Shown here: positions 16,313 through 31,695 of the stretch, in pieces | Position numbering within the stretch: position 1 is the stretch's first letter | Layout of the letters: each line of letters starts with the position of its first letter | Origin: Gammaproteobacteria bacterium | GTDB taxonomy: Bacteria > Pseudomonadota > Gammaproteobacteria > SZUA-229 | Direction: 5' to 3' | Assembly: GCA_029882215.1 (NCBI GenBank) | Contig: JAOULC010000019.1 | Span: 1-61,248 of the forward strand | Length of the DNA: 61,248 bases | Translations under genes and position numbers: made by a program | Notes under the pieces: model-generated | What the model saw: the letters and a program-made list of their open reading frames with translations, nothing else | What the model was told of the DNA's origin: nothing | The model's database searches: none

Positions 16313-16330
16313 CTATCCCATATGGGATAG
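16313..16330. promoter_or_regulatory. Perfect 18-bp palindrome, likely operator
   Basis: CTATCCCATATGGGATAG is self-complementary over all 18 bases. The inner TATCCCA-TA-TGGGATA has the 7-2-7 layout of NarL-family sites. It lies about 190 bases before the dsrA start and 56 bases before the predicted -10, so it could be an upstream site for the same regulator as the box at 16347. Confidence 0.6.
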
Positions 16331-16346
16331 TGCGGGTATATGTGAA

Positions 16347-16391
16347 CACCCCATAGGTAGGATGTTCGGGTTGATAAGTGGGCCCTAAAAT
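16347..16391 (+). promoter_or_regulatory. Predicted dsrA promoter: CCCC-ATA-GG box plus -10
   Basis: Box CACCCCATAGGTAGGA (16347-16362) followed by TAAAAT (16386-16391), with no recognisable -35. From box start to -10 start is 39 bases, the same layout as at 31396 (38) and 48543 leftward (39). The predicted start near 16398 puts the box centre at about -43, the usual place for a class II activator. Confidence 0.55.
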
Positions 16392-16521: not shown

Positions 16522-17775
16522 ATGGCTACTAAGCATGTAACCCCGATGCTCGACGAACTAGAAACAGGCCCGTGGCCGAGTTTCATTTCGGGTTTCAAAC
16601 GTCTGCGTGATGACCATCCAGATGCTCGTATTAACGGTTTGGCAAACGGCCTGCTGGGTCAGTTAGAGCACTCTTACGAAACTCGTAAAGGTTACTGGAA
16701 AGGCGGTACTGTTTCTGTATTCGGTTACGGCGGCGGTATCATTCCACGTTTCTCAGAAGTCGGTCATGCCTTCACTGAGTCAAAAGAATTCCATACTGTG
16801 CGTGTTCAGCCACCTGCATCTAACTTCTACACAACTGATATGTTGCGTCAGCTAGGTGATTCGTGGGAGAAGCATGGTTCTGGTCTTGTTACTTTCCATG
16901 GTCAGACTGGTAACATTATGTTTATCGGTACTGATACTTCACGTATCCAGCACTTCTTTGATGAAATCAATGAGTACGGTTTTGACTTGGGTGGTGCGGG
17001 TCCATGTGTACGTACTGCTATGTCATGCATCGGTTCAGCGCGCTGTGAAATGTCTTGCTACAACGAGCAGGCCGCACACCGTCATCTGGTAAACAACTTT
17101 ACTGATGATGTTCACCGCCCGGCATTGCCATACAAGTTTAAGTTCAAGTTCTCTGGTTGCCCGAATGACTGTCAGAATGCTATCGAGCGTGCGGATTTCG
17201 CAGTAATTGGTACGTGGCGTGATGATATGCGTGTTGATCAGGCAGAATTCAAAGCAGCGATGGAAAAGAAAGGTCGTCAGTATATTATCGACAACGTTAT
17301 TACTCGTTGCCCGACTCAGGCGCTTTCATTAAATGATGATGACACGATTGCTGTTGATAATCGCAACTGTGTTCGTTGTATGCACTGCCTGAATGTGTTG
17401 CCTAAGGCGCTGGGTGTTGGTAATGACAAGGGTGTAACTATCCTGATTGGTGGTAAACGTACACTGAAAATTGGTGACTTGATGGGTACTGTAGTGGTTC
17501 CTTTCATGAAGCTGCGCACTGAAGAAGATTTCGAACGTATCGTTGAAATGGCTGAAGAAGTTGTTGATTTCTGGGCTGAAAATGGTCTGGAGCACGAGCG
17601 TACTGGTGAAATGATCGAGCGTATCGGTCTGGTTAACTTCCTTGAAGGCATCGGTATTGATGTTGACCCGAATATGGTTAGCAATCCTCGTCAAAGTTCA
17701 TACATTCGTATGGATGGCTGGGATGAAGCAGCTGTTGAATGGTTCGAGAAGAAAGCTGAGAAAGCAGCTAGTTAA
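16522..17775 (+). CDS. dsrA: Reverse-type dissimilatory sulfite reductase, alpha subunit
   Basis: 417 residues. DsrAB is a cytoplasmic alpha2beta2 siroheme enzyme which, in sulfur oxidizers, oxidises DsrC-bound sulfur towards sulfite. The siroheme/[4Fe-4S] ligand motifs are present: C-x5-C at 169-175 (CIGSARC) and C-x3-C at 213-217 (CPNDC). A ferredoxin-type cluster domain has CVRCMHC at 283-289 plus C263. Codon use is markedly biased to cgt, ggt and ctg, a sign of high expression. A strong AAGGAG precedes the ATG. First gene of the operon. Confidence 0.98.
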   Translation: MATKHVTPMLDELETGPWPSFISGFKRLRDDHPDARINGLANGLLGQLEHSYETRKGYWKGGTVSVFGYGGGIIPRFSEVGHAFTESKEFHTVRVQPPASNFYTTDMLRQLGDSWEKHGSGLVTFHGQTGNIMFIGTDTSRIQHFFDEINEYGFDLGGAGPCVRTAMSCIGSARCEMSCYNEQAAHRHLVNNFTDDVHRPALPYKFKFKFSGCPNDCQNAIERADFAVIGTWRDDMRVDQAEFKAAMEKKGRQYIIDNVITRCPTQALSLNDDDTIAVDNRNCVRCMHCLNVLPKALGVGNDKGVTILIGGKRTLKIGDLMGTVVVPFMKLRTEEDFERIVEMAEEVVDFWAENGLEHERTGEMIERIGLVNFLEGIGIDVDPNMVSNPRQSSYIRMDGWDEAAVEWFEKKAEKAAS

Positions 17776-17797
17776 TTAATTTGTTTATTTTGTATCT

Positions 17798-17824
17798 AAA
17801 GCGGGTGAGTTTGTTCCCCGCTTT
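17798..17824 (+). other. Intercistronic hairpin between dsrA and dsrB
   Basis: AAAGCGGG and CCCGCTTT form an 8-bp stem with an 11-nt loop in the 72-base gap. There is no long T-run, so it is more likely a stabilising or processing element than a full terminator. Confidence 0.5.
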
Positions 17825-17847
17825 ATTCATAATTTGAGGAAGATACG

Positions 17848-18924
17848 ATGGCTTTAGAAGATATGAGACCACCTATTGAAACAGGTTGTCCTGATGGTTT
17901 TCAATACATGCACCCAATGTTGCGTAGAAACTTTGGTCTGTGGGCTTATCATGAAGATCCACAGCCAGGTGTTTTATTGCACGTAGCGAAAAGTGGTGAA
18001 AAAGTTTGGACTGTTCGCGCTGGTACTCAGCGTATTTTAGATATTTTCACGCTGCGTAAGTTGTGTGATATCGGTGATCAGCAAGCTGATGGTTATGTTC
18101 ATTTTACTATCCGTTCAAATATCGAGTATTTTGTAACTGACGAAGCAAAAGTGCAGCCATTAATTGATGCGCTGACTGAAGCGGGTTTTATTGTTGGTGG
18201 TACGCGTAACTCTGTTGCGATGATGTCACACACACAGGGTTGGTTGCACTGCGATATCCCTGGTACTGATGCATCGGGTGTTGTTAAGGCGATGATGGAT
18301 GAGCTGATTACAGAGTTTAAAGAGTGGAACATGCCTAACCGTGTTCACTTAACAACTTCATGTTGTCAGATTAACTGTGGTGGTCAGGGCGACATCGCGA
18401 TCAACGTGCAGCACACTAAGCCACCTAAGATTAATCATGATCTGGTTGCTAATGTCTGTGAGCGTCCTTCGGTTGTTGCTCGTTGCCCGGTAGCTGCGAT
18501 TCGTCCTGCACTGGTTAATGGTAAGCCATCTCTGGAAGTTGATGAGAAGAAATGTATCTGTTGTGGTGCATGTTTCCCGCCATGTCCTCCAATGATGATT
18601 AACGATGCTGAGCATTCTAAACTGGCTGTTTGGGTTGGTGGTAACCACTCAAATGCACGTGGCAAGCCTACGTTCCAGAAATTAGTTGCTGCTGGTATTC
18701 CTAATAATCCTCCACGCTGGCCTGAAGCAACTGCTGTTGTTAAGAATATTCTTAATGCTTACAAAGCAGATGCTCGTGACTGGGAGCGTGTAGGTGAGTG
18801 GGTTGAGCGTATTGGCTGGCCACGTTTCTTTGAAATTACTAACCTGCCTTTCACCAAGTACCATGTGGATACTTGGAAAGGTGCGCGTAACAGCCTGAAC
18901 GCTTCTACGCATATCCGTTTCTAA
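17848..18924 (+). CDS. dsrB: Reverse-type dissimilatory sulfite reductase, beta subunit
   Basis: 358 residues, usual DsrB length. Cofactor motif TSCCQINCGG (C172, C173, C177) and a ferredoxin domain with CICCGAC beginning at C236 and a further C246. It pairs with DsrA, carrying the catalytic siroheme at the subunit interface. GAGGAAG precedes the ATG. Like dsrA it uses codons typical of highly expressed genes. Confidence 0.98.
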   Translation: MALEDMRPPIETGCPDGFQYMHPMLRRNFGLWAYHEDPQPGVLLHVAKSGEKVWTVRAGTQRILDIFTLRKLCDIGDQQADGYVHFTIRSNIEYFVTDEAKVQPLIDALTEAGFIVGGTRNSVAMMSHTQGWLHCDIPGTDASGVVKAMMDELITEFKEWNMPNRVHLTTSCCQINCGGQGDIAINVQHTKPPKINHDLVANVCERPSVVARCPVAAIRPALVNGKPSLEVDEKKCICCGACFPPCPPMMINDAEHSKLAVWVGGNHSNARGKPTFQKLVAAGIPNNPPRWPEATAVVKNILNAYKADARDWERVGEWVERIGWPRFFEITNLPFTKYHVDTWKGARNSLNASTHIRF

Positions 18925-18939
18925 GATAGGGTTTTTGAT

Positions 18940-19332
18940 ATGAAATTTGGTATACAGGTAAATGAAGGTCCTTATACCCATGAAGCTTCTGTAACAGCGA
19001 TTAACTTTGTTAAATCTGCTGTTGCAAAAGGTCATGAGGTGTTCCGAGTGTTCTTTTATCATGATGGTGTTAATAACGGTACTCGTTATGCTAAGCCGCC
19101 ACAGGATGATATCAATATTCAGAAGACCTGGTCTGAGCTGGCTAAAGAGCACAATATAGATTTAGTTATCTGTGTTGCTGCTGCCCAGCGGCGTGGTCTT
19201 GCTGATGAAGGTGAGCAAGAACGTAATGGTCTGGATGGTAATAACATCATGGACGGTTTCCGGATTTCTGGCTTAGGCCAGTTGATCGAAGCCGGTATTG
19301 AATGTGACCGTCTGGTAGTTTTCGGCGACTAA
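18940..19332 (+). CDS. dsrE: Sulfur relay protein DsrE
   Basis: 130 residues, DsrE/TusD family. With DsrF and DsrH it forms an alpha2beta2gamma2 cytoplasmic complex that hands persulfide sulfur to DsrC. The persulfide-carrying cysteine is present at C78 (LVICVAAAQRRG), the same number as in A. vinosum DsrE, which separates it from TusD of sulfur-relay tRNA modification. It starts 15 bases after dsrB. Confidence 0.97.
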   Translation: MKFGIQVNEGPYTHEASVTAINFVKSAVAKGHEVFRVFFYHDGVNNGTRYAKPPQDDINIQKTWSELAKEHNIDLVICVAAAQRRGLADEGEQERNGLDGNNIMDGFRISGLGQLIEAGIECDRLVVFGD

Positions 19333-19348
19333 TTTAAGGGTCTTTGTA

Positions 19349-19756
19349 ATGTCTAACGTAAAGAAATTTATGTATATCAACAACAAGGCTCCTTACGGCA
19401 CGATTTACGCGTGGGAGTCTCTGGAAGTTGTTTTGATTGGTGCTGCTTTTGATCAGGAAGTTAGTCTGATGTTCACTGGTGACGGTGTATATCAGTTAAT
19501 GAAAGGTCAGGATACTAAAGAAGTAGGCATCAAAAACTTTTCACCAACTTATGCGGCATTAGGTGACTACGATATCAACAAAATTTATGTTGAAAAAGAG
19601 TCTCTGGATGCGCGCGGTTTAACTGTTGATGATCTAATGCACCTGGTTTGGGAAGATGAAGATGCTGATTGGGAAGAAAAAGACTCAATCCGTGTAGTGA
19701 CTTCTGCTGAGCTGGCTGAAATCCTTGATCAACAAGATGTAGTATTGAGCTTCTAA
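19349..19756 (+). CDS. dsrF: Sulfur relay protein DsrF
   Basis: 135 residues, DsrF/TusC family, with the usual opening KKFMYINNKAPYGTIYAWESLE. There is no cysteine at all, as expected for DsrF, which has a structural role in the DsrEFH hexamer. It lies between dsrE and dsrH with gaps of 16 and 11 bases. Confidence 0.97.
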   Translation: MSNVKKFMYINNKAPYGTIYAWESLEVVLIGAAFDQEVSLMFTGDGVYQLMKGQDTKEVGIKNFSPTYAALGDYDINKIYVEKESLDARGLTVDDLMHLVWEDEDADWEEKDSIRVVTSAELAEILDQQDVVLSF

Positions 19757-19767
19757 GGAGATTTGAG

Positions 19768-20076
19768 ATGTCTATTTTACACACAGTAAATAAATCGCCT
19801 ACTGATCGCAATACACTTGAAAGCTGTCTGAAGCTGACTGTTAAGGGTGCTTCAGTGCTTTTGATCGAAGATGGTGTTTATGGTGCAGTATCTGGAGCAG
19901 TTAGCTCACAGATGGTGCAAGATGCAATGGGCAATGTATCCGTTTATGTGCTTGGTCCAGACTTAAAGGCGCGCGGTGTTGATGAGTCGCGTTTAATCGA
20001 CGGTGTAAAAGTTGTTGATTACGATGGTTTTGTTGATCTGGCGACAGACAATGACACTGTTAGTGCTTGGGTTTAA
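19768..20076 (+). CDS. dsrH: Sulfur relay protein DsrH
   Basis: 102 residues, DsrH/TusB family, third part of the DsrEFH complex. The conserved cysteine is C20 (LESCLKL), matching the active DsrH cysteine described in A. vinosum. A GGAG precedes the ATG. Confidence 0.97.
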   Translation: MSILHTVNKSPTDRNTLESCLKLTVKGASVLLIEDGVYGAVSGAVSSQMVQDAMGNVSVYVLGPDLKARGVDESRLIDGVKVVDYDGFVDLATDNDTVSAWV

Positions 20077-20120
20077 TTTTTTTAGTATTTAATTAGCGAT
20101 AATCCGTAGAGGAAAAAATC

Positions 20121-20456
20121 ATGGCTGCTATTGAGTTTGAAGGTAAAAGTTACGAAGTTGATGAAGAAGGTTATTTGGTTGATCTGACCCAGTGGGTTCC
20201 GGGTCTGGCTCAAATCATGGCAAATGACGAAGATGCTGTTTTGACTGATGCTCACTGGGAAGTTCTGAACTTCTTACGTGAATACTACGAAGAGTATCAG
20301 ATTGCTCCTGCAGTACGTGTACTGACTAAGGCAATTGGTAAAAAACTGGGTAAAGACAAAGGCAACAGTAAGTACCTGTATGAACTGTTCCCATACGGCC
20401 CTGGTAAGCAAGCATGTAAATATGCTGGTCTGCCAAAGCCAACTGGTTGCGTATAA
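20121..20456 (+). CDS. dsrC: Sulfur carrier DsrC
   Basis: 111 residues, the mobile sulfur carrier that links DsrEFH, DsrAB and the DsrK subunit of the membrane complex. The flexible C-terminal arm ends KYAGLPKPTGCV and has both redox cysteines, C99 and the penultimate C110 (equivalent to CysB and CysA). These form the persulfide/trisulfide and disulfide states. It is followed by a stem-loop, in line with dsrC being expressed at a higher level than the genes after it. Confidence 0.98.
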   Translation: MAAIEFEGKSYEVDEEGYLVDLTQWVPGLAQIMANDEDAVLTDAHWEVLNFLREYYEEYQIAPAVRVLTKAIGKKLGKDKGNSKYLYELFPYGPGKQACKYAGLPKPTGCV

Positions 20457-20481
20457 TCGCACGCAGTTGTTTTGATCTGCG

Positions 20482-20500
20482 AGGAGGCTATATGCCTCCT
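20482..20500 (+). other. Stem-loop after dsrC
   Basis: AGGAGGC-TATAT-GCCTCCT, a 7-bp GC-rich stem, followed by TGTATTTAATTT. It may protect the dsrC mRNA 3' end or terminate part of the transcripts before dsrM. Confidence 0.6.
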
Positions 20501-20555
20501 TGTATTTAATTTCGAAGTATTTAAATCCGGAAGCATTAGACGGAGTTAGGTGAAA

Positions 20556-21293
20556 ATGTCTTTTTTACTGTTAATAGCGCTTGTTGTATTTATTGTTGGT
20601 GTTGGTTTAAAAATTAAACAATACGCTCAGACGCCTGCGCCACTAAAAATCCCTACTACGCCTGCACCTGTAACGCAGACTGGTGTTGTCTTCCGTATGG
20701 CACGTGAAGTCGTGCTTTTTGAAAGTCTGTTTAAATCGAATAAGTGGATCTGGGTCTTTGGCTGGATGTTTCACGTGTCTTTGTTGCTGGCATTCTTCCG
20801 TCACCTGCGTTATGTGGTGAGCCCTGATAGTTTTATGTGGCCGCTAGTTAGTAATGTCATTGTTCAGAGCTTTGGTCAGTATGCAGGCTTCGCGATGGTT
20901 ATCGGTCTGTTAGGTTTGCTGGCCCGTCGCTTCCTGGTAGAGCGCATACGTTATATTTCTTCTCCTTCAGATTATTTAATGCTGGTGATGCTGATTGTGA
21001 TCGGTGTCAGTGGTTTAATGATGAGCTTTGTATCGCACATTGATATAGTGCAGTTAAAAATGTTTGTGATGGGCTTGTTTGGTTTTGATTTCCAGAACTT
21101 ACCTGAAAGCACGGCTTTAATAGTTCATTTGCTTTTAGTTGTTGTGTTGCTGCTGATCTTCCCGTTCAGTAAGTTATTGCACGCACCGGGTGTGTTCTTT
21201 AGTCCAACGCGTAATCAGGTTGATAACCCGCGTGAAAAACGTCACCTGTCTGCATGGGCTGCTGAAAAATACAACGATCACGTAGATAAGTAA
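20556..21293 (+). CDS. dsrM: DsrM, cytochrome b subunit of the DsrMKJOP complex
   Basis: About 245 residues, a NarI-like membrane protein with five or six transmembrane helices. It should carry haem b and exchange electrons between quinone and DsrK. Candidate haem ligands include H in GWMFHVSLLLAFFRHLRY and in the later helix around IVHLLLVV. The ATG is preferred over the GTG two codons earlier because GGAG lies 10 bases ahead of it. Confidence 0.95.
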   Translation: MSFLLLIALVVFIVGVGLKIKQYAQTPAPLKIPTTPAPVTQTGVVFRMAREVVLFESLFKSNKWIWVFGWMFHVSLLLAFFRHLRYVVSPDSFMWPLVSNVIVQSFGQYAGFAMVIGLLGLLARRFLVERIRYISSPSDYLMLVMLIVIGVSGLMMSFVSHIDIVQLKMFVMGLFGFDFQNLPESTALIVHLLLVVVLLLIFPFSKLLHAPGVFFSPTRNQVDNPREKRHLSAWAAEKYNDHVDK

Positions 21294-21348
21294 AAATATT
21301 CACTACGTAATAACTGATAACGATTAACTTTAATCTAGGAAGTAAGTT

Positions 21349-22884
21349 GTGGCTGATTTCGAGACACCAGAAATTAAAGAGTTTATAGGCATTCCTGCAC
21401 TGCAGGAAGGCTCAATGGCGCATAGTTCACCATTTATAGCGTATACCGATCATCAGGAGGCATTAGGCTATCCAGGTGAACTGGTAGAGAACTGGCAGCA
21501 GGTTGCGCTGGATAAAATGGATGACTTGCGTAGCCGTTATCGTTCGTTTCAGGTGTTTCTTGATTCATGTGTAAAGTGCGGTGCCTGTACCGATAAATGC
21601 CATTACTTCCTCGGTACCTCTGATCCTAAAAACATGCCGGTTGCACGTCAGGATTTGCTGCGAAAAGTGTATCGCCGTTATTTTACTTTTGCTGGCAAAT
21701 ACTTCCCGAAACTGGTTGGTGCTGAAGATTTAACAGAAGCGGTACTGGATGACTGGTACAGCTATTTCCATCAGTGTTCGCAGTGTCGCCGTTGTTCAGT
21801 GTTTTGCCCGTACGGTATAGACACAGCGGAAATCTCAATGGCTGCCCGAGAAATTATGGATGCTGTTGGTAAAGGCCAAAAATACTGTAACGAAATTATC
21901 GGCAAAGTATTTACAGTCGGTAATAACCTGGGATTGCCGGGTAAAGCACTGGCGAATGTTCTTGAAGGTCTTGAAGAAGACGTTGAAGACGATACCGGTG
22001 TAGCCGTTAAATTCCCGCTTGATGTGAAAGGTGCTGATATTTTATTAGTGACACCTTCTGCTGATTTCTTTGCAGAGCCTCACATTGATGGTCTGATCGG
22101 TTACGCAAAAGTATTTCATGAAACTGGCGCTAGCTGGACCTTAAGTACCACCGCTTCTGAAGCGGGTAACTTTGGTATGTTTATAGGCTCTTACGAAAAC
22201 ATGCGTCGCGTATCCATGCGGATTCGTGATGCGGCTAAAGAATTAGGTGTTAAACGCATCATCTTTGGTGAGTGTGGTCATGCATGGCGTATAGCGTACA
22301 GCTTCCTAAACACGCTGGTTGGTCCTTTTGATTTTCTTGATCAGAGCTATCCGATTCCTCAGCACATCCTTGAGTACACCTGGGGCGAGTTAGAGAAAGG
22401 TACCTTACGCATCAACAAAGAAGAAAATGATCACATGACGCTGACATTTCATGATTCATGTAATGTGGCGCGTGGTTCACGCATGGGTGATTACCCGGGC
22501 GGTCAGTTCGATTATCCGCGTAATGTTATTAAAGCAGTTTGTAATAATTACGTCGACATGGATCCAAAAACAACGAAAGAAGCAACTTTCTGCTGCGGTG
22601 GCGGCGGTGGTCTTCTGACAGATGATTTAATGGAGATCCGTGTTAAGGGTGTTTTGCCTCGTGCAACAGCGCTGAAGAGCGTTGTTGAAAATGAAGGCGT
22701 AACCCACATGGCAGCGATTTGTGCAATCTGTAAGAGTCAGTTCACAAAAACGTTACCTTATTATGGCTTCACTATGGATCAAATAGTGAGTGTCCACCAG
22801 TTAGTTAGTGAAGCGCTGGTCATGAAAGGTTCTGAGCAAGAAGCAGAACTTGATGGCACCGACGGCGACGACACCGAAGAATAA
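21349..22884 (+). CDS. dsrK: DsrK, HdrD-like iron-sulfur subunit
   Basis: 511 residues. DsrK resembles the catalytic HdrD subunit of heterodisulfide reductases and is thought to reduce or oxidise the DsrC disulfide. Two ferredoxin motifs are CVKCGACTDKC and CSQCRRCSVFC (near residues 70-155). C-terminal cysteine-rich CCG segments include TFCCGGGGG and the earlier DSCNVARGS, which bind the unusual [4Fe-4S] centre. Start codon is GTG with AGGA 8 bases upstream; dsrK starts with ATG in many relatives. Confidence 0.97.
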   Translation: MADFETPEIKEFIGIPALQEGSMAHSSPFIAYTDHQEALGYPGELVENWQQVALDKMDDLRSRYRSFQVFLDSCVKCGACTDKCHYFLGTSDPKNMPVARQDLLRKVYRRYFTFAGKYFPKLVGAEDLTEAVLDDWYSYFHQCSQCRRCSVFCPYGIDTAEISMAAREIMDAVGKGQKYCNEIIGKVFTVGNNLGLPGKALANVLEGLEEDVEDDTGVAVKFPLDVKGADILLVTPSADFFAEPHIDGLIGYAKVFHETGASWTLSTTASEAGNFGMFIGSYENMRRVSMRIRDAAKELGVKRIIFGECGHAWRIAYSFLNTLVGPFDFLDQSYPIPQHILEYTWGELEKGTLRINKEENDHMTLTFHDSCNVARGSRMGDYPGGQFDYPRNVIKAVCNNYVDMDPKTTKEATFCCGGGGGLLTDDLMEIRVKGVLPRATALKSVVENEGVTHMAAICAICKSQFTKTLPYYGFTMDQIVSVHQLVSEALVMKGSEQEAELDGTDGDDTEE

Positions 22885-22924
22885 ACATATTTTTGTAATA
22901 TAGATTACATCTGGAGATATACAC

Positions 22925-24883
22925 ATGGCTACTTCAAAAGACGAGATGCAAAACAGCGGTTTAACTTTCCGCCGTTTTGAAGATGGTGACCACACATGGG
23001 GTTCAATGCATGACAAGATCTTCAATGAAGATACTTCTTATAAATGCCCTACATATGTTCACCGTACGCCGCCTTGTCAGGGTTCATGCCCTTCAGGTGA
23101 GGATATCCGTGGTTGGTTAGATATCGTACGTGGTATAGAAAAGCCTCAAGGTGATGTGAGCTGGCAGGAATATGCATTCCAGCGCTCTACGACTGCAAAC
23201 CCGTTCCCGTCAATGATGGGCCGTGTCTGCCCGGCTCCTTGTCAGGACGGCTGTAACCGTAATGACGTTGAAGACTTCGTGGGTATCAATGCAGTTGAGC
23301 AGTTCATCGGTGATACTGCGTTTAAAGAAGGTTTTAAATTTGCAGCACCGGCATGTGGCGATAAAAAAGTAGCGATTATTGGTGGTGGTCCAGCTGGCAT
23401 GGCAGCAGCTTACCAGTTACGCCTTAAAGGTATTGGCAGCACAATATTTGATGACCACGCTGAGCTGGGTGGCATGATGCGTTATGGTATCCCTGGCTAC
23501 CGTACACCACGTGAGCAACTGAATCACGAGTGTCAGCGTATAATTGATATGGGTAACATCGAACTGAAGATGAATACTCGCGTAGGTAAAGACGTTGCCG
23601 TTGCTGATCTTGAAAAAGAGTACGATGCGGTTTTATGGGCACTAGGTTGCAAAACTGGTCGTGGTTTATTCCTTGATGATTTCGCAGCAACGCCAAACTG
23701 TGTAACGGCTGTTGATTTTCTAGAGCAATTCAACAAAGGTGACATGAAGTACACTGCCAACAAAGTATTATGTGTGGGTGGTGGTGATACTTCGATCGAC
23801 GTTGTTTCTGTATCACGTCGTATTGGTACATTAAAAGATCTGCAAGAAAATCCTGAAGATGCGGCAACGGGTGTAACAACACACGGTGATGTTGCAGACT
23901 CTGACAAGAAAGCCTGTGACAGCGTTGTCTTAACTGCACTGTTTGCACAAGACCAAATGACGGCAGCAGAGCACGAAGTAAATGATGCGCTACAAGAAGG
24001 CGTTATCATCATGAATGAAGTAATGCCGGTAGAAATCATTAAAGATGCCAGCGGTCGTGCAACGGCTCTGAAACTGGTTGATAGCAAATTTGAAGGCAAT
24101 ATGCCGGTTGCTGTTGAAGGCGGAAAAGAGTATGTCGTTGAGTGTGATCTGATTGTATCTGCAATCGGTCAGACCGGTGATATGACAGGCGTTGAAGACT
24201 TTGATAATGGTCGTGGTCTGATTGATTCAGATAAAAACTTCCAGGTCCCTGGTAAAACGGGTCACTTTGTCTGTGGTGATATAATCCGACCTCACTTGTT
24301 AACAACAGCGATTGGTCAGGCGTCTAAAGCAGCTGATAGCATTGAGGCATTCATCAATAAAGTTGAACTCGGTAAGCGTCCTAAAGTTGATGTTCACCAT
24401 TTCAGTCTGATGAATAAGCTGAATGAAGTCGGTAAAACACCTGAGAAATATGATGCAAGTCTGGGTGACTTACGTGGTACATCATTCGCTAAGTTTGCGG
24501 TACATAACTTTGAAGACCGCTCTAACGCACAGGTGATCTCAACAGACCAAATGTTTTTAGGTCACTTCGAGCAGAAGAACCGTAACCTGCGTACTGAAGA
24601 TGTGCCAAATGCCGATCAGGTACTGGGCCACTTTGCAGAACGTATGAACAGCTATGATGAAGCGACTGCACAGGCTGAAGCTGAGCGTTGCATGAGCTGT
24701 GGTATGTGCTTTGAATGTGATAACTGTGTTATCTACTGCCCGCAAGATGCCGTCTTTAAAGTAAATAAAGCCGAGGCTTCAACTGGTCGTTATGTTGATA
24801 CTGACTATGCAAAATGTGTTGGTTGTCATATCTGTTCAGACGTTTGTCCTACTGGCTACATCGACATGGCTCTGGGCGAATAA
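22925..24883 (+). CDS. dsrL: DsrL, NAD(P)-linked flavoprotein partner of DsrAB
   Basis: 652 residues, GltD-like iron-sulfur flavoprotein, needed for sulfur oxidation in A. vinosum. N-terminal cluster cysteines CQGSCPSGED and CPAPCQDGC; FAD site IGGGPAGMAAAYQLR (about residue 150); NAD(P)-binding site CVGGGDTSIDVVS (about 283). A C-terminal ferredoxin domain has CMSCGMCFECDNC and CVGCHICSDVC, giving two further clusters. It accepts electrons from DsrAB and passes them to NAD(P)+. Confidence 0.97.
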   Translation: MATSKDEMQNSGLTFRRFEDGDHTWGSMHDKIFNEDTSYKCPTYVHRTPPCQGSCPSGEDIRGWLDIVRGIEKPQGDVSWQEYAFQRSTTANPFPSMMGRVCPAPCQDGCNRNDVEDFVGINAVEQFIGDTAFKEGFKFAAPACGDKKVAIIGGGPAGMAAAYQLRLKGIGSTIFDDHAELGGMMRYGIPGYRTPREQLNHECQRIIDMGNIELKMNTRVGKDVAVADLEKEYDAVLWALGCKTGRGLFLDDFAATPNCVTAVDFLEQFNKGDMKYTANKVLCVGGGDTSIDVVSVSRRIGTLKDLQENPEDAATGVTTHGDVADSDKKACDSVVLTALFAQDQMTAAEHEVNDALQEGVIIMNEVMPVEIIKDASGRATALKLVDSKFEGNMPVAVEGGKEYVVECDLIVSAIGQTGDMTGVEDFDNGRGLIDSDKNFQVPGKTGHFVCGDIIRPHLLTTAIGQASKAADSIEAFINKVELGKRPKVDVHHFSLMNKLNEVGKTPEKYDASLGDLRGTSFAKFAVHNFEDRSNAQVISTDQMFLGHFEQKNRNLRTEDVPNADQVLGHFAERMNSYDEATAQAEAERCMSCGMCFECDNCVIYCPQDAVFKVNKAEASTGRYVDTDYAKCVGCHICSDVCPTGYIDMALGE

Positions 24884-24915
24884 GCTCGGGCTCTGGCGAA
24901 TTAGTGGAGAATATC

Positions 24916-25401
24916 ATGGTGTTATGGTTTCGAAAAAACCTTCAGAACATAATGCTGGCAGCGATAGCTATGCTGCTGGCAACTTCTGTAAATGTTAATG
25001 CTGAAGTTGTAGCCCCTGTCGTACCGAAAGGCAAGGGTGAACAATGTGTTGAGCCAACTGATGTGATGCGCAAGAATCACATGGAGATGCTAAAGCACCA
25101 GCGGGATGAAACCATGCATAATGGTATTCGCACTAAAAAACATGCTCTTAAAGAGTGTATCGCCTGCCACGTACAGGAAGATGAAAAAGGTCAGGTCGCA
25201 CGTTTTGGCGATGACGGGCACTTCTGTAGTTCGTGCCATAACTATGCCGGTGTTAATGTTGACTGCTTCCAGTGTCATGCTGATCGTCCGCAAGAGTTGA
25301 TTGGTAAAGGTCATAAAATCAAGCCTCATCACACGGCAGACTTTAAAGATAAAGCTATCAATAAAGAAGCGCTGCAAGCTTTAACGGAGGTATCAAAATG
25401 A
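24916..25401 (+). CDS. dsrJ: DsrJ, periplasmic trihaem cytochrome c
   Basis: 161 residues starting MVLWFRKNLQNIML, chosen because GGAG lies 6 bases ahead and a signal anchor follows at once; longer readings extend into dsrL. Three haem-binding motifs are visible: CIACH, CSSCH and CFQCH, as in characterised DsrJ. A signal peptide or uncleaved anchor covers residues about 8-35. Periplasmic electron-transfer subunit of DsrMKJOP. Its stop overlaps the dsrO start (ATGA). Confidence 0.96.
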   Translation: MVLWFRKNLQNIMLAAIAMLLATSVNVNAEVVAPVVPKGKGEQCVEPTDVMRKNHMEMLKHQRDETMHNGIRTKKHALKECIACHVQEDEKGQVARFGDDGHFCSSCHNYAGVNVDCFQCHADRPQELIGKGHKIKPHHTADFKDKAINKEALQALTEVSK

Positions 25402-26135
25402 AAACAGTAAATACAACTGATACTTCAAAACGTAAGTTTTTAGGTGGTGCCGCTGCAGTTGCCGGTATTGCTATTGCGCCGGGCGTACTTTTACAAACGG
25501 TAAATGCCAAGCCTGATAACGAAGCAGTAAGCAATAAAGTCCGCTGGGGCATGCTGATTGACACCAACAAGTGTGGCGATGGTTGTACTGATTGTGTGAC
25601 AGCCTGTAATACTGAAAATGGCTTAACCGGTTTTGAACGCCCTGAAACTGATTCACAGTGGATTCGTAAACTGACATTAAAAGATAAACAAACGGGTCAC
25701 GTACAAACACTACCTGTTATGTGTCAGCATTGTGAAACGGCCCCTTGCGTTGATGTCTGCCCGACCGGTGCATCATTTAAGCGTGAAGACGGTATTGTAC
25801 TTGTAGACAAGCATATTTGTATTGGCTGTCGTTACTGCATGATGGCTTGCCCGTATAAAGCGCGTAGCTTCGTACATGAAGATTTACAGGATCAAAAAGA
25901 TCATGCACCACGTGGTAAAGGTACTGTTGAATCCTGCACTATGTGTGTACACAAAGTTGATAACGGAGAGAACCCGGCTTGTGTAACTGCCTGTAATAAA
26001 GAACATAAAGCCATGTACTTTGGTGATCTTAATGACGCAAACAGCGAAATCTCTAAACGCCTTAAGCAGTATGGTGGTAAGCAGATTCGTGCGGACTTAG
26101 GTCTGAATCCTGGCGTACGTTACCAGGGCGTTTAA
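25398..26135 (+). CDS. dsrO: DsrO, periplasmic ferredoxin subunit
   Basis: 245 residues with an N-terminal Tat-like signal in which the twin arginine is KR (SKRKFLGGAAAVAG). Four ferredoxin-type motifs are present, among them CGDGCTDCVTAC, CQHCETAPCVDVC, CIGCRYCMMAC and CTMCVHK. It passes electrons between DsrJ and the membrane subunit DsrP. It overlaps dsrJ by four bases, so translation is coupled. Confidence 0.96.
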   Translation: MKTVNTTDTSKRKFLGGAAAVAGIAIAPGVLLQTVNAKPDNEAVSNKVRWGMLIDTNKCGDGCTDCVTACNTENGLTGFERPETDSQWIRKLTLKDKQTGHVQTLPVMCQHCETAPCVDVCPTGASFKREDGIVLVDKHICIGCRYCMMACPYKARSFVHEDLQDQKDHAPRGKGTVESCTMCVHKVDNGENPACVTACNKEHKAMYFGDLNDANSEISKRLKQYGGKQIRADLGLNPGVRYQGV

Positions 26136-26159
26136 GATAAAAACGAGAGTAGATAGACT

Positions 26160-27368
26160 ATGAAATTAATTAGATTCGCTTCAATTGATGGAAACAGCAA
26201 CGGCTATTGGGGCTTGATGGCGTTGCTTGCAGCTTTTATTCTTGCTGCCCTGGGTTCGTCGTATTACATGGAACACCACGGTCATCATGTGACAGGCATG
26301 ACTAACCAGATCGTCTGGGGCTTACCACATGTGTTTGCGGTATTCTTAATCGTTGCGGCTTCCGGTGCGCTTAACATTGCATCGATTGCCTCGGTCTTTA
26401 ACAAGAAGGCCTATAAACCTCTGGCGCGTCTATCAGCAGTGCTGGCACTGGCTTTACTGGCCGGTGGTCTTATGATTCTGGTTCTGGATCTTGGCCGGCC
26501 TGATCGCTTGATCATTGCGGCTACAATTTATAACTTCAAATCTATTTTTGCCTGGAACATGATCCTCTATTCTGGTTTTATGGGAATAGTCGGTGTTTAT
26601 ATCTGGACAATGATGGATGAAACCGTGGGCCGCTTTAATCGTCTTGCAGGGATCTCTGCATTCATCTGGCGTATAATGCTGACAACGGGTACCGGTTCTA
26701 TCTTTGGTTTTCTTGTTGCGCGTCAGGGTTATGATGCGGCTATCATGGCACCAATGTTCATCATCATGTCTTTCGCATTTGGTCTTGCTATCTTTAACCT
26801 GGTTTTGTTTGCTGCATATAACGGTACTAGACGTGAATTAGGTGATGCAATTGTTAAGCGTTTAAGAAATTTGTTAGGCGTGTTTGTTGCTGCGATTATG
26901 TACTTTGTCGTGGTCTTTCATTTAACAAACTTATATGCAACAGAACATCACGGTGTTGAAGCATTTATTTTGCGTGACGGTGGTATCTTTACCCAGCTAT
27001 TCTGGATTGGTCAGGTTGTTATCGGTGGTTTAATCCCGTTAGCACTATTGTACGCGCCGCAGTTACAAGGTTGCCGTAAATCAATGGCGCTGGCATCTGT
27101 ACTAATCGTACTGGGTGGCCTTGCACAAATGTATGTGATCATCATCGGTGGTCAGGCTTATCCGCTGCAGTTGTTCCCGGGCATGGAAGTAAGCAGTTCA
27201 TTCTTTGACGGAGTGGTGAATTCATACACACCTACTTTAGCGGAATTAATGCTTGGTCTGGGTGGTGTTGCAGTTTCTTTAATTGTTGTCACACTGGCTC
27301 TTAAAGCGCTGCATTTGCTACCGATTAGTCTTGCTGACGCTGTTGCTGATCCGCATCATAAAGACTAA
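26160..27368 (+). CDS. dsrP: DsrP, NrfD-like integral membrane subunit
   Basis: 402 residues with about ten transmembrane helices, NrfD/PsrC family. It is the second quinone-interacting membrane subunit of DsrMKJOP, with no haem motif expected. Typical segments are LDLGRPDRL (about residue 104) and LYAPQLQG. A stem-loop follows before dsrN. Confidence 0.96.
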   Translation: MKLIRFASIDGNSNGYWGLMALLAAFILAALGSSYYMEHHGHHVTGMTNQIVWGLPHVFAVFLIVAASGALNIASIASVFNKKAYKPLARLSAVLALALLAGGLMILVLDLGRPDRLIIAATIYNFKSIFAWNMILYSGFMGIVGVYIWTMMDETVGRFNRLAGISAFIWRIMLTTGTGSIFGFLVARQGYDAAIMAPMFIIMSFAFGLAIFNLVLFAAYNGTRRELGDAIVKRLRNLLGVFVAAIMYFVVVFHLTNLYATEHHGVEAFILRDGGIFTQLFWIGQVVIGGLIPLALLYAPQLQGCRKSMALASVLIVLGGLAQMYVIIIGGQAYPLQLFPGMEVSSSFFDGVVNSYTPTLAELMLGLGGVAVSLIVVTLALKALHLLPISLADAVADPHHKD

Positions 27369-27387
27369 TCGTTAGATGATGTCTTAA

Positions 27388-27414
27388 AGCTGTCGGTCAT
27401 TCTTACCGACAGCT
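27388..27414 (+). other. Stem-loop between dsrP and dsrN
   Basis: AGCTGTCGGT / ACCGACAGCT, a perfect 10-bp stem with a 7-nt loop, followed by ACTCCCAAATT without a T-run. This suggests mRNA processing or partial attenuation between the electron-transfer genes and the cofactor genes. Confidence 0.6.
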
Positions 27415-27447
27415 ACTCCCAAATTATCTGTTCAAAGGTGGCTACAT

Positions 27448-28836
27448 TTGTCACATCTCCTGATTTCTGCAGCTCATAAATCGTCTGGTAAAACCACTAT
27501 CAGTATCGGACTGTGCGCGGCGTTAACGGCCAGAGGAAATATTGTTCAGCCATTTAAAAAAGGCCCGGATTATATCGATCCTTTATGGCTGGGCAGAGCA
27601 ACGGGCCGGGCCTGTCACAATCTTGATTTTTATACGATGGACCGTGACGAGATTAAACATGAATTTGTACAGCAATCTGCAGGCTCAGATATCCAGCTGA
27701 TTGAAGGTAATAAGGGGCTCTATGACGGGCTTGATCTCGATGGCAGTAACAGCAATGCTGCGCTGGCAAATTTGCTGAATGCGCCTGTTGTACTGGTTAT
27801 TGATGCCAGAGGTATGACCCGTGGTATTGCACCTTTGATTTTAGGTTATCAGGCATTTGATCGCGATATTCGTATTGGTGGCGTTATTCTCAATCAGGTG
27901 GGTGGCTCGCGTCATGAATCAAAACTAAGAAATGTTATTGAGTACTATACCGACGTAAAGGTACTGGGTGCTGTACAGCGTGATGAGCGTTTAAACATTG
28001 ATGAACGCCATTTAGGCCTGATGCCAAGCAATGAATTTAAGCAGGTATCACAGAAGATAGAATTGTTATCGACGGCAGTTAAAGATCAGGTTGATCTTGA
28101 CCGTGTTATCGGGCTTGCCGCAACAGCCGCACCGGTTGCTGAAGATAATGTTATTGATATGATAGCCGGGTTTAAGGCTGACAATATAAAAATTGGTATT
28201 GTTAAGAATGAGGCATTCGGGTTTTATTATCCGGGCGACATTGAAGCATTTCAACACTGTGGTGTTGAAATTGTTGAGATCGACACTATCGTAGATAGCA
28301 GTTTAGCCGAAATAGACGGTTTATTCATTGGTGGCGGCTTTCCGGAAACCATGCTTGATGAGCTGGAAGCTAACCAGTCGATGCGGCAAGATATTAAATG
28401 CGCAATCGATGACGGTTTGCCTGTCTATGCTGAATGTGGCGGGCTGATGTATCTCGCCAGAAATATATCCTGGCAAGGCAAAAGCGCTAAAATGGTGGGC
28501 TGTATTCCGGCTGATGTGGTAATGAATGATAAACCACAGGGCAGAGGTTATGTGCAGTTAGCTGTGACGGAAAATTTCGACTGGCCGATAGATAGCACTG
28601 AAAGAGAGCGTGTTATCAGTGCGCATGAGTTTCACTACTCATCATTGCATGGCTTGCCCGGGGACAGTAAGTTCGCTTTTGATGTGAAGCGTGGCGTTGG
28701 CATAACAGGTAACAAAGATGGTTATCGTTACAAGAACCTGCTGGCATGTTATAGCCATATGAGGGACAGCCGTCAGAATCACTGGGTAACACGATTTGTA
28801 CAGTATGTGTCTGAATGTAAAGAGAGAAAAAAATGA
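27448..28836 (+). CDS. dsrN: DsrN, siroheme amidase (cobyrinate diamide synthase-like)
   Basis: 462 residues of the CbiA/CobB glutamine amidotransferase family. In A. vinosum, DsrN makes the siro(haem)amide cofactor of DsrAB. N-terminal P-loop ISAAHKSSGKTT, and the C-terminal glutaminase-type domain with AECGGLMYL (nucleophile Cys near residue 331) and the late EFHYSSLHG. The start is TTG, with AAAGGTGG a few bases ahead; no ATG fits. The stop overlaps the dsrR start. Confidence 0.95.
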   Translation: MSHLLISAAHKSSGKTTISIGLCAALTARGNIVQPFKKGPDYIDPLWLGRATGRACHNLDFYTMDRDEIKHEFVQQSAGSDIQLIEGNKGLYDGLDLDGSNSNAALANLLNAPVVLVIDARGMTRGIAPLILGYQAFDRDIRIGGVILNQVGGSRHESKLRNVIEYYTDVKVLGAVQRDERLNIDERHLGLMPSNEFKQVSQKIELLSTAVKDQVDLDRVIGLAATAAPVAEDNVIDMIAGFKADNIKIGIVKNEAFGFYYPGDIEAFQHCGVEIVEIDTIVDSSLAEIDGLFIGGGFPETMLDELEANQSMRQDIKCAIDDGLPVYAECGGLMYLARNISWQGKSAKMVGCIPADVVMNDKPQGRGYVQLAVTENFDWPIDSTERERVISAHEFHYSSLHGLPGDSKFAFDVKRGVGITGNKDGYRYKNLLACYSHMRDSRQNHWVTRFVQYVSECKERKK

Positions 28837-29141
28837 TTACGATTACCGAAGCAGCAGCAAATCAGATCAAGGAATCAGCAAAGCAAGGCAAAATCGAAGG
28901 GCTTGCACTGCGTATTGCATGTACTAAGCAGCAAGACGGTAGCCTGCACTACGGCATGGGGTTTGATGAGAAGACCGAAGAGGACCAGCTATTTATGTCG
29001 AATGATATAGAACTGATCGTCGCCCCTGTCAGTCTGGGGTTACTCAGCGGAACAGTTCTTGATTTTGTTGAGCTGGAAGCAGGTAAGCCGGATTTTATTT
29101 TCCAGAACCCTAACGACCCAGATCATCAGCCGGTTAAGTAA
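28833..29141 (+). CDS. dsrR: DsrR, A-type scaffold-like protein
   Basis: 102 residues, IscA/A-type fold family. The first part holds C30 (RIACTKQQ), but the C-terminal CxC pair that binds iron-sulfur clusters in IscA is missing, as known for DsrR of A. vinosum. A regulatory or chaperone-like role has been suggested there. It overlaps dsrN by four bases. Confidence 0.94.
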   Translation: MITITEAAANQIKESAKQGKIEGLALRIACTKQQDGSLHYGMGFDEKTEEDQLFMSNDIELIVAPVSLGLLSGTVLDFVELEAGKPDFIFQNPNDPDHQPVK

Positions 29142-29143
29142 CA

Positions 29144-30094
29144 ATGATGATGACAGACGCCAATACGCTTGAATTATCACAGCAGTATGCAAATCCATTC
29201 GATTTAGATAATGATGAAGCGTATCAAAAGTGGCGTGACATAAAGCTGAAGGACTACCCTGCGTCTGTTGATGATCTTATTGTTCGTATCAGCGATGTGA
29301 ATTATCTGGCTGAGGCTGAAATCAGAGCGCTAAAACAACTGATAGGTCACTATAACCTGGTGATCTATGAGCTGGCAGATAAAACCGCGACTAAAGCACA
29401 AATCAGGCAGTTTGCACGCGCTGTGGGGCTGGATCAGATTGATAATAATATTTGTTCTGATGAGGATAGTATTACGGCCTTACAAGTCTCTGAAGAAGGC
29501 CAAAAGAAACTCTACATCCCCTATACAAACCGCCGCTTAAGCTGGCATGCCGATGGCTATTACAATACTTTAGACCAGCAAATACGTGGCATGCTGCTGC
29601 ATTGCGTGACACCGGCTGTTAAAGGTGGTGAAAACATGCTGCTTGATCATGAAATGCTGTATATTCAGCTTCGCGATGAAAATCCTGCGCTCATACGCGC
29701 TCTTATGCATGAACAGGCTATGACTATTCCGGCCAATAATGAAGGTGCTGAGGGACAAGAAATCAGGCCTGAGCAGACGGGCCCGGTTTTTTCAGTCGAG
29801 AAAAATACTGGTAGCCTGCATATGAGGTATTCAGCCCGTACACGTAATATTATCTGGCGTGATGATCCGATAACCGCTCAGGCATGTGAGAAAATCAGCG
29901 GCTATTTATCATCCAGCCCCTACATTTTGAGATATAGGCTTAAGGCTGGACAAGGTGTAATCTGTAACAATGTGCTGCATAATCGTACCGCTTTTGAAGA
30001 CAGTGATAGCCAGCATCGATTGTTATACCGGGCCCGTTTTTATGATCGGGTCGCTGAAACCGGCGTGGCTGGCATAATGAATCAGGTGAATTAG
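29144..30094 (+). CDS. TauD/TfdA-family Fe(II)/2-oxoglutarate dioxygenase in the dsr operon
   Basis: 316 residues. The iron site is visible as H135-A-D137 (LSWHADGYY) and distal H279 (VLHNRTAFED), with the 2-oxoglutarate arginine probably in RLLYRARFYDR. This family opens C-H bonds next to sulfonates, carboxylates or amines; the substrate here is unknown. It starts 2 bases after dsrR and is followed immediately by a small gene, so it sits firmly in the operon. Taurine-type sulfonate cleavage would release sulfite, which fits a sulfur locus, but that is inference. Three consecutive ATGs make the exact start uncertain. Confidence 0.8.
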   Translation: MMMTDANTLELSQQYANPFDLDNDEAYQKWRDIKLKDYPASVDDLIVRISDVNYLAEAEIRALKQLIGHYNLVIYELADKTATKAQIRQFARAVGLDQIDNNICSDEDSITALQVSEEGQKKLYIPYTNRRLSWHADGYYNTLDQQIRGMLLHCVTPAVKGGENMLLDHEMLYIQLRDENPALIRALMHEQAMTIPANNEGAEGQEIRPEQTGPVFSVEKNTGSLHMRYSARTRNIIWRDDPITAQACEKISGYLSSSPYILRYRLKAGQGVICNNVLHNRTAFEDSDSQHRLLYRARFYDRVAETGVAGIMNQVN

Positions 30095-30283
30095 ATGTTG
30101 TATCTCAGTGAAGTGTTAATGAAAAACCATGAAATGAGCTCATTTGAAGAGCTAAAAGTTGCTCTAAAAGGTGAGGCCCGGCAGGGTCAAATGTTCTTTG
30201 AAATGGATGTGAAACCGGGATTTACAGATACACCAACAGACTGGCAAGACCAGTGTGAGGCTGCTTTTACAAGCAGGGACTAG
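30095..30283 (+). CDS. Small unknown protein between the dioxygenase and the Cas6-like gene
   Basis: 62 residues; a second possible start (MKNHEMSS) lies 24 bases later. No cysteine, no signal peptide, acidic, with the segment FFEMDVKPGFTDTPTDWQDQ. Not recognised. Its ATG follows the dioxygenase stop without a gap, and its stop is one base before the Cas6-like ATG, so all three are likely translated together. It is credible as a gene because of this packing. Confidence 0.6.
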   Translation: MLYLSEVLMKNHEMSSFEELKVALKGEARQGQMFFEMDVKPGFTDTPTDWQDQCEAAFTSRD

Positions 30284-30284
30284 T

Positions 30285-31001
30285 ATGTTCTGGAACGAAG
30301 ATGAAAAACAGAAGCCTTATCAGGTGCCTGAAGATATCGTCGATGTCGGCTTCAAAGTCATCAGTCAATCGTTACCACTGGAGCATGCGCATGAGTTATA
30401 TGAAGCCTTGCATAATGTTCTGCCCTGGCTAAATGATGAAAAGCTCATTGGTATTCATCAGATTCACGGTGCAGAGTCCGGCAATGGCTGGATGCGCCCT
30501 GAAGACACAGAAAATGAATTATTGTATTTGTCGCGCAGGGCGCGGCTGTATATAAGAACGCCGGATCACCGCTTAGCGGCTATACAAGCTCTGAGTGGGC
30601 AGATACTGGATATTGCTGGACATAAGCTGGAGCTCGGCTCGTCAATCATTAAACCGCTCAGTACCCAGACAGAGCAATTCTCACGATATGTAATCGTTGA
30701 AGAAGGCGAAGAGAGCGAGGCTGATTTTTTAAAGCGTGTAGTGGCAGAGCTCAATGAGTCTCTGGATACCAGTATACGCAAGATTATGTGTGGAAAACCT
30801 CACATGATTCGGTTACCGGAAGAAGACATCAGAACGCGCAGTATAATGGTGGCTGATCTGGATCCGAAAATTGCTGTGAAGTTACAACAGCAGGGTGTTG
30901 GCCGTGGAAGACGATATGGCTGTGGCCTGTTCTTACCACATAAAGGCATTAAGGCGGTTGGTGAAACGGAAGACAAAACCCATTTTACCGGTGCCAGATA
31001 A
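30285..31001 (+). CDS. Cas6/Cmx6-like (subtype I-MYXAN) RNA-processing-type protein
   Basis: 238 residues. The start PEDIVDVGFKVISQSLP, then LEHAHELYEAL, GIHQIHG (H58, H61) and the C-terminal glycine-rich loop GVGRGRRYGCG (204-214) match my recollection of the Cas6/Cmx6 family of repeat-cleaving endoribonucleases (RAMP fold). The start is the ATG one base after the preceding stop. There is no CRISPR array and no other cas gene in the window; instead it lies between dsr genes and an RspA-type DsrC homologue. Possible roles are processing of the long dsr mRNA or another RNA, or a non-nuclease RAMP. Family call fairly sure, function unknown. Confidence 0.72.
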   Translation: MFWNEDEKQKPYQVPEDIVDVGFKVISQSLPLEHAHELYEALHNVLPWLNDEKLIGIHQIHGAESGNGWMRPEDTENELLYLSRRARLYIRTPDHRLAAIQALSGQILDIAGHKLELGSSIIKPLSTQTEQFSRYVIVEEGEESEADFLKRVVAELNESLDTSIRKIMCGKPHMIRLPEEDIRTRSIMVADLDPKIAVKLQQQGVGRGRRYGCGLFLPHKGIKAVGETEDKTHFTGAR

Positions 31002-31055: not shown

Positions 31056-31370
31056 ATGAGTGTTGAAAAAACAGAAAACGGTTACCTGGTAAACGCAAGT
31101 GACTGGACAAAGGAAATTGCTGAAGAAATTTTCGCAGAAGAAGGTATCACACCTACCGAAGAGCACTGGGATGTAATTGATTACATGCGCGAGCAGGTGC
31201 TAGATGAAGGTGCTGAGCCAAATGAGCGCGGCATCATGAAAGCAATGGAAAAGAAATGGGGTAAAAAACTAACGTCTAAGTACATGTATGAGTTATTCCC
31301 TATGATGCCTTCAAAGCAAGGCCTGAAAATCGGTGGATTACCTCAATCTACCCGTAAGGGCGGCTACTAA
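31056..31370 (+). CDS. DsrC-family protein lacking both redox cysteines (RspA type)
   Basis: 104 residues, clearly DsrC/TusE family along its length (EEHWDVIDYMREQ, SKYMYELFPMMPSKQG). The C-terminal arm ends LKIGGLPQSTRKGGY. Compared with DsrC in this window, both cysteines are replaced (Leu at the CysB place, Lys at the CysA place). It therefore cannot carry a persulfide or form the DsrC disulfide. Such proteins have been named RspA and are proposed to be regulatory. Last gene of the extended dsr operon. Basic in the tail, where DsrC contacts DsrAB. Confidence 0.88.
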   Translation: MSVEKTENGYLVNASDWTKEIAEEIFAEEGITPTEEHWDVIDYMREQVLDEGAEPNERGIMKAMEKKWGKKLTSKYMYELFPMMPSKQGLKIGGLPQSTRKGGY

Positions 31371-31439: not shown

Positions 31440-31491
31440 CTGGCATTAAATGCAGATTTAGTTATCCAAAACACGAATTAAGGTGATGGAC

Positions 31492-31695
31492 ATGAGCGAC
31501 AAGCAAGAAATGATCAAGAAAATGATCGAAATGCAGAAAAAATTCCAAGAGTATGAGACTGCAAATGGTGTAGATCCAGAAGATTACTTCACACCTAAGT
31601 CAGGTCATGAACTTGATGGCTACCGTCAAGAGTATGCCGATCTGGCAGCCGCTGTTAATGCAGCAGCACATTCAGAAGTTGGTTCTAAGCCTTAA
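31492..31695 (+). CDS. 67-aa unknown protein behind a dsr-like promoter
   Basis: MSDKQEMIKKMIEMQKKFQ..., a soluble, helical, cysteine-free protein. The N-terminal 20 residues are an amphipathic helix rich in Lys, Glu and Met; the middle has GVDPEDYFTPKSG. The ATG is chosen because AAGGTG lies about 6 bases ahead; GTG and ATG codons just upstream are alternatives. It has its own box-type promoter and a strong terminator, so it forms a single-gene unit. Not recognised. The codon choice and clean regulatory signals suggest an abundant protein. Confidence 0.82.
   Translation: MSDKQEMIKKMIEMQKKFQEYETANGVDPEDYFTPKSGHELDGYRQEYADLAAAVNAAAHSEVGSKP

Follow-up and report, generated by a model that had tools for sequence, protein, structure and literature searches.

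Why does a gene of the Cas6 family, whose usual job is the trimming of CRISPR guide RNAs, lie at the end of an operon for sulfur oxidation? The question is raised by a 61,248-nucleotide stretch of a gammaproteobacterial contig (JAOULC010000019.1, positions 1 to 61,248; hereafter the window). The rDsr pathway is the main cytoplasmic route by which stored sulfur is oxidized in many Gammaproteobacteria, and to our knowledge the regulation of its genes is poorly understood. In the window, a cassette containing the Cas6-like gene continues the dsrA-R run on the same strand without a break, at its 3' end:

16522-29141, + strand: dsrA-B-E-F-H-C-M-K-L-J-O-P-N-R run, upstream of the cassette
29144-30094, + strand: TauD/TfdA-type Fe(II)/2-oxoglutarate dioxygenase of the cassette (PF02668, 1.6e-23)
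30095-30283, + strand: conserved 62-aa protein (sm62) without known family, kept together with the TauD-like gene
30285-31001, + strand: dsr-linked Cas6-family protein, 238 aa, assigned from sequence matches and fold and as the sole genome copy
31056-31370, + strand: RspA, a DsrC/TusE-family protein without cysteines (PF04358, 5.1e-28)
31483-31695, + strand: conserved 70-aa protein (p70) that closes the cassette, with a terminator-like hairpin after it

The tight packing of TauD-like gene, small gene, Cas6 and then RspA, described originally from the DNA letters, holds at the level of single bases: the ATG of the 62-aa gene directly abuts the stop of the TauD-like gene, the Cas6 ATG lies one base past the stop of the 62-aa gene, and RspA starts at 31056.

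Family, fold and CRISPR context

By sequence and predicted fold, the 238-aa product is a Cas6 protein. The protein matches PF09559 (Cas6, Pfam) at E = 1e-55, its 189 bits exceeding the 26.7 required, and TIGR02807 (cas6_cmx6, NCBIfam) at 121 bits, where 98.85 are required, which bears out the Cas6/Cmx6-like identity proposed at the outset; the Cas6 models of PADLOC also match, with E-values down to 4.7e-55. The gene is present in a single copy in the genome (98% complete, 144 contigs). The closest sequence among solved structures is the Cas6 of a type I-B CAST complex (8fcj_B, 1.7e-16). An AlphaFold model made from 32 relatives (mean pLDDT 84.5) has the double RRM (RAMP) fold of Cas6 that had been anticipated, aligning with 8fcj_B at Z 24.8 over 198 residues (rmsd 1.9) and with P. 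furiosus Cas6 bound to its RNA (3pkm) at Z 15.3. The C-terminal glycine-rich loop is retained as well, residues G204, G206, G212 and G214 being kept in 98-99 of 100 dsr-linked proteins.

With the type I-MYXAN/I-B Cas6 proteins (TIGR02807 and PF09559, including 8fcj) the dsr-linked proteins share the two RRM-like domains, the glycine-rich loop, R134 and Q201, at 27-29% identity. They differ from them in lacking CRISPR and cas genes, in the loss of the histidine of the P-x-[LI]-H-[DE] motif, in the gain of an NGWxRP segment (in the gammaproteobacterial proteins) and in their placement within a TauD-sm62-RspA cassette beside dsrA. As was first noted, no CRISPR-like direct repeats occur within the window and no cas genes lie near Cas6 at the locus; with neither repeats nor neighboring cas genes, the gene does not qualify as a component of a type I-MYXAN CRISPR-Cas system, in contrast to L083, where such a system is genuine. 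A CRISPR-Cas locus elsewhere in the genome, in need of this Cas6, was one of the objections foreseen; the 98% complete genome contains no Cas1, and its only matches to Cas3 are helicases below the cut-off.

Co-inheritance with dsrA across Gammaproteobacteria

The proposed tie to sulfur oxidation extends across the class Gammaproteobacteria, which in the GTDB sense includes the former Betaproteobacteria. Among 274 genomes spread over the class, with Cas6 scored as PF09559, the family was detected in 91, dsrA in 94 and both in 87 (odds ratio 547, Fisher p = 2e-57). Cas1, on the other hand, is not significantly associated with Cas6 (42 of the 91 Cas6 genomes vs. 62 of the 183 others; p = 0.06) and is missing from 49 of those 91. 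Eleven genomes are discordant, seven having only dsrA and four only Cas6. In most of the former the contig stops just upstream of dsrA; in L107 it stops inside the cassette right after sm62, and in G263 dsrA is split, with one piece at the start of a contig. In the four with only Cas6, the contig either stops just past the TauD-like gene or is not long enough to decide. Given these contig ends and partial dsrA genes where the partner would lie, no sampled genome clearly has one gene alone.

On shared contigs, Cas6 and dsrA are typically about 1.7 kb apart (usual range 1-3 kb) and are divergent in 65 of 66 cases. The usual arrangement is a cassette of TauD, small protein, Cas6 and RspA beside dsrA. 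The window departs from this pattern, as does L002, its nearest relative: there the cassette follows the operon at its 3' end. Cas6 lies outside the cassette in two members of a family with small genomes (1.4-1.6 Mb; L088, L089, L116); the complete 1.45-Mb genome L088 keeps it 41 kb from dsrA. Genomes of 1.0-1.1 Mb (L091-L093) still carry Cas6. The cassette also takes in other genes: several lineages have a conserved protein of 230-260 aa between sm62 and Cas6 (L003:7755-8438, L080:679-1440, L103:7220-7927), with no Pfam match in the two scanned, and in some genomes a rhodanese gene joins Cas6 and RspA (L080:2648-3502, by Pfam; L135:10211-11062, by sequence). Where a genome with a complete dsr operon has a further dsrAB copy (L111-L114), that copy comes without the Cas6 cassette.

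A scan of genome contigs returned Cas6 relatives from gammaproteobacterial records (one bears just the title Proteobacteria); where a record extends far enough for neighbors to be visible, dsr genes mostly lie beside the match. For 48 non-gammaproteobacterial dsrA genomes drawn from elsewhere in the phylum, a first pass with TIGR02807 was followed by a search with an alignment-built profile, because TIGR02807 is less sensitive here than PF09559; this search, which had no positive control of its own, gave no Cas6 profile match in the 48. Some of these non-gammaproteobacterial loci (L150, L152-L154) have TauD-sm62 divergent from dsrA without Cas6 and RspA there, and sm62 and the TauD-like gene are present together in alpha-type dsr loci that lack Cas6. 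Thus, Cas6 and RspA look like additions to an older TauD-sm62 pair, made in a lineage that includes L135-L137, three further members of the class that we take to be betaproteobacteria.

We regard it as very nearly certain that the protein belongs to the Cas6 family, that it is without CRISPR and that it is a partner of dsr; on this the original prediction was right, and the case is stronger than first stated. Within the class, a PF09559 match is commonly labeled CRISPR Cas6 but for the most part points to sulfur oxidation, not immunity, and the gene is a near-universal, overlooked and directly testable rDsr partner from an RNA-processing family. With Cas6 as a standard dsr companion without CRISPR, an RNA-handling step may belong to sulfur oxidation in these bacteria. 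A literature search of partial coverage, with few subscription papers, found no description of the link, and an earlier one could exist; the accessible part of a review of CRISPR exaptation (PMC6452270) leaves it unmentioned, and neither Cas6 nor CRISPR occurs in the text of a 2024 survey of Dsr evolution (PMC11406059). The closest parallels within the pathway are dsrR and dsrS, which are also auxiliary rDsr-linked genes and not part of the enzymes, but belong to unrelated families; dsrR has been implicated in the regulation of sulfur oxidation (PMC11406059).

Probable RNA binding and candidate targets

Of nine comparison Cas6 proteins, most of them encoded beside other cas genes or taken from a CAST structure, six carry the P-x-[LI]-H-[DE] histidine, which we take to correspond to His46 of P. 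furiosus Cas6 by sequence motif and alignment and not by superposed coordinates. In the dsr-linked set this canonical active-site histidine is missing: the column is variable, and the stretch contains a histidine in just 1 of 100 proteins (L056). RNA cutting is therefore doubtful, and judged by sequence the activity has likely been lost. The loss is put no higher than that because the Sulfolobus solfataricus Cas6 cuts without the canonical histidine (PMC3652601). That protein (Sso1437) resembles the dsr-linked Cas6 in having the Cas6 fold without the histidine, a likeness that leaves aside its basic residues, but it works on CRISPR RNA, whereas the dsr-linked protein is without CRISPR. Other positions are conserved among the dsr-linked proteins but not among the CRISPR ones, namely W48, H58 (96 of 100 proteins), N67, W69, R71, P72, R85 (100 of 100), K166 and R185. 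The NGWxRP segment is an insertion in the gammaproteobacterial dsr-linked proteins that is missing from CRISPR Cas6 and from L135-L137.

The explanation that we favor, with a probability of roughly 55%, is that the protein is a domesticated Cas6 acting as an RNA-binding regulator of dsr expression. One Cas6 lineage would have left CRISPR and become a co-inherited partner of the rDsr pathway in Gammaproteobacteria, as a stand-alone protein encoded beside dsrA within the TauD-sm62-Cas6-RspA cassette. Through its pair of RRM-like domains and its glycine-rich loop it would still bind a short RNA stem-loop, probably without cutting it efficiently, and with RspA as partner it would tune dsr gene expression after transcription, a leader RNA upstream of dsrA being one candidate target. 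Sequence and model make RNA binding quite likely, and the protein is probably an RNA-binding protein rather than a standard nuclease. A role in regulating dsr expression, to which the fold, the RNA-loop residues, gene order and co-inheritance point, has somewhat better than even odds. Of the repurposed RNA-binding or RNA-cutting protein originally proposed, the domesticated Cas6 thus stands, and the cutting is in doubt with the histidine gone.

The link to expression rests on neighborhood and co-inheritance, and the same pattern would be expected if the protein took part in sulfur relay or in protein assembly. The RRM folds could instead serve, in a role not involving RNA, as a protein scaffold for enzyme assembly or sulfur relay together with RspA or DsrEFH/DsrC; the NGWxRP insertion and the other dsr-only residues could then be the interface. 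RspA does lie within 1.3 kb downstream of Cas6 on the same strand in 83 of the 104 loci with room for it, but it is missing at that place in the other 21, and the loop GxGxxRxxGxG and R134, common to RNA-processing Cas6, stay conserved in the dsr-linked proteins. We therefore consider a scaffold unlikely, if worth keeping in mind.

The intercistronic hairpins of the dsr messenger were the target suggested at the outset, and hairpins are indeed found in the spacers of the window, as had been claimed:

17798-17824, + strand: dsrA-dsrB intercistronic hairpin (a strong hairpin occurs in this spacer in 24 of 53 loci)
20479-20503, + strand: dsrC-dsrM intercistronic hairpin (40 of 48 loci, median z -2.3)
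27388-27414, + strand: dsrP-dsrN intercistronic hairpin

If the protein were an active, structure-specific RNase, cutting dsr mRNA at the dsrA-B and dsrC-M hairpins and thereby setting protein ratios, this would fit the gathering of strong hairpins in exactly these two spacers, above all dsrC-M, with strong hairpins rare in the other dsr spacers. It would fit, too, the G-rich 5' arm of 35 of the 40 dsrC-M hairpins and the ability of Cas6 enzymes to cut without the histidine. However, the hairpins vary in sequence between species, and their similarity is no higher within a genome than between genomes (p = 0.48); dsrA-B hairpins are present in dsr operons that lack Cas6 (L150-L154); and hairpins are missing from the small genomes L091-L093, which keep Cas6. 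Thus, there is no sign that the hairpins are the Cas6 target, the suggested action on them is not supported, and with the canonical histidine also lost we judge such an RNase distinctly improbable. The dsrC-dsrM hairpin is a near-universal feature of the messenger, apparently independent of Cas6.

Leaders offered little structure, the signal being weak for dsrA (median z -0.9) and absent for TauD (median z -0.1), and an Rfam scan of the dsr region gave only weak, chance-like matches, one of them over the terminator after p70. Upstream of dsrA there is nevertheless a conserved bipartite element, TATCCC-N4-GGGATA followed about 16 bases later by ACACCCCAnGGTAGG:

16314-16329, no strand assigned: palindrome TATCCC-N4-GGGATA preceding dsrA, a conserved feature of dsr loci in Gammaproteobacteria
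16346-16361, + strand: second conserved block ACACCCCATAGGTAGG, after the palindrome

The first part, with no more than two mismatches, occurs in 35 of 41 loci vs. 1 of 205 shuffles, and the copy at 16314-16329 is the only exact one in the genome. The palindrome accompanies dsrA even in L116, where the Cas6 gene is unlinked, and is missing from the Cas6-less loci checked; it is also missing from three betaproteobacterial loci and from L092/L093, all of which have Cas6. Its arms vary both with and without pairing kept. This variation, together with the absence from some Cas6 loci, makes an ordinary operator more likely than a Cas6 target; by sequence, the element may serve the dsr regulon as an operator, or could form a six-pair leader hairpin should it be transcribed. 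A sharper version of regulation, in which Cas6 is a dedicated post-transcriptional regulator that binds one dsrA-leader hairpin, possibly UAUCCC-N4-GGGAUA, and jointly with RspA reports the sulfur state to control the dsr genes, is speculative and in our view has little chance of being correct.

Descent and purifying selection

The dsr-linked Cas6 is under purifying selection. Between the window protein and its nearest relative (L002), dN is 0.107 and dS 1.86, a dN/dS of about 0.06 that is rough because dS is near saturation. Distances between Cas6 proteins correlate with those between the DsrA proteins (r = 0.65, reached in 0 of 2,000 permutations). A passive hitchhiker beside dsr, without function, would also be found nearly always near dsr where linkage is visible, but it is a very remote prospect given this selection and the retention of Cas6 in reduced genomes of 1.0-1.4 Mb and also where it lies apart from dsr.

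A conventional role in CRISPR, with the crRNA of another CRISPR locus being processed in trans, is what the family models would suggest in naming the protein a type I-MYXAN Cas6; it is rejected as very unlikely, given a genome without Cas1 or above-cut-off Cas3, the lack of association with Cas1 over the 274 genomes, and a separate clade with conserved dsr neighbors. In that phylogeny, the dsr-linked proteins and the nine comparison Cas6 proteins form two groups (support 100/98). One member of the comparison set, a Cas6/Cmx6 of a Gloeobacter plasmid (L128:2974-3765), is again found in unusual surroundings: it has no effector cas genes in view and adjoins a gene of the PAPS-reductase family and a cupin.
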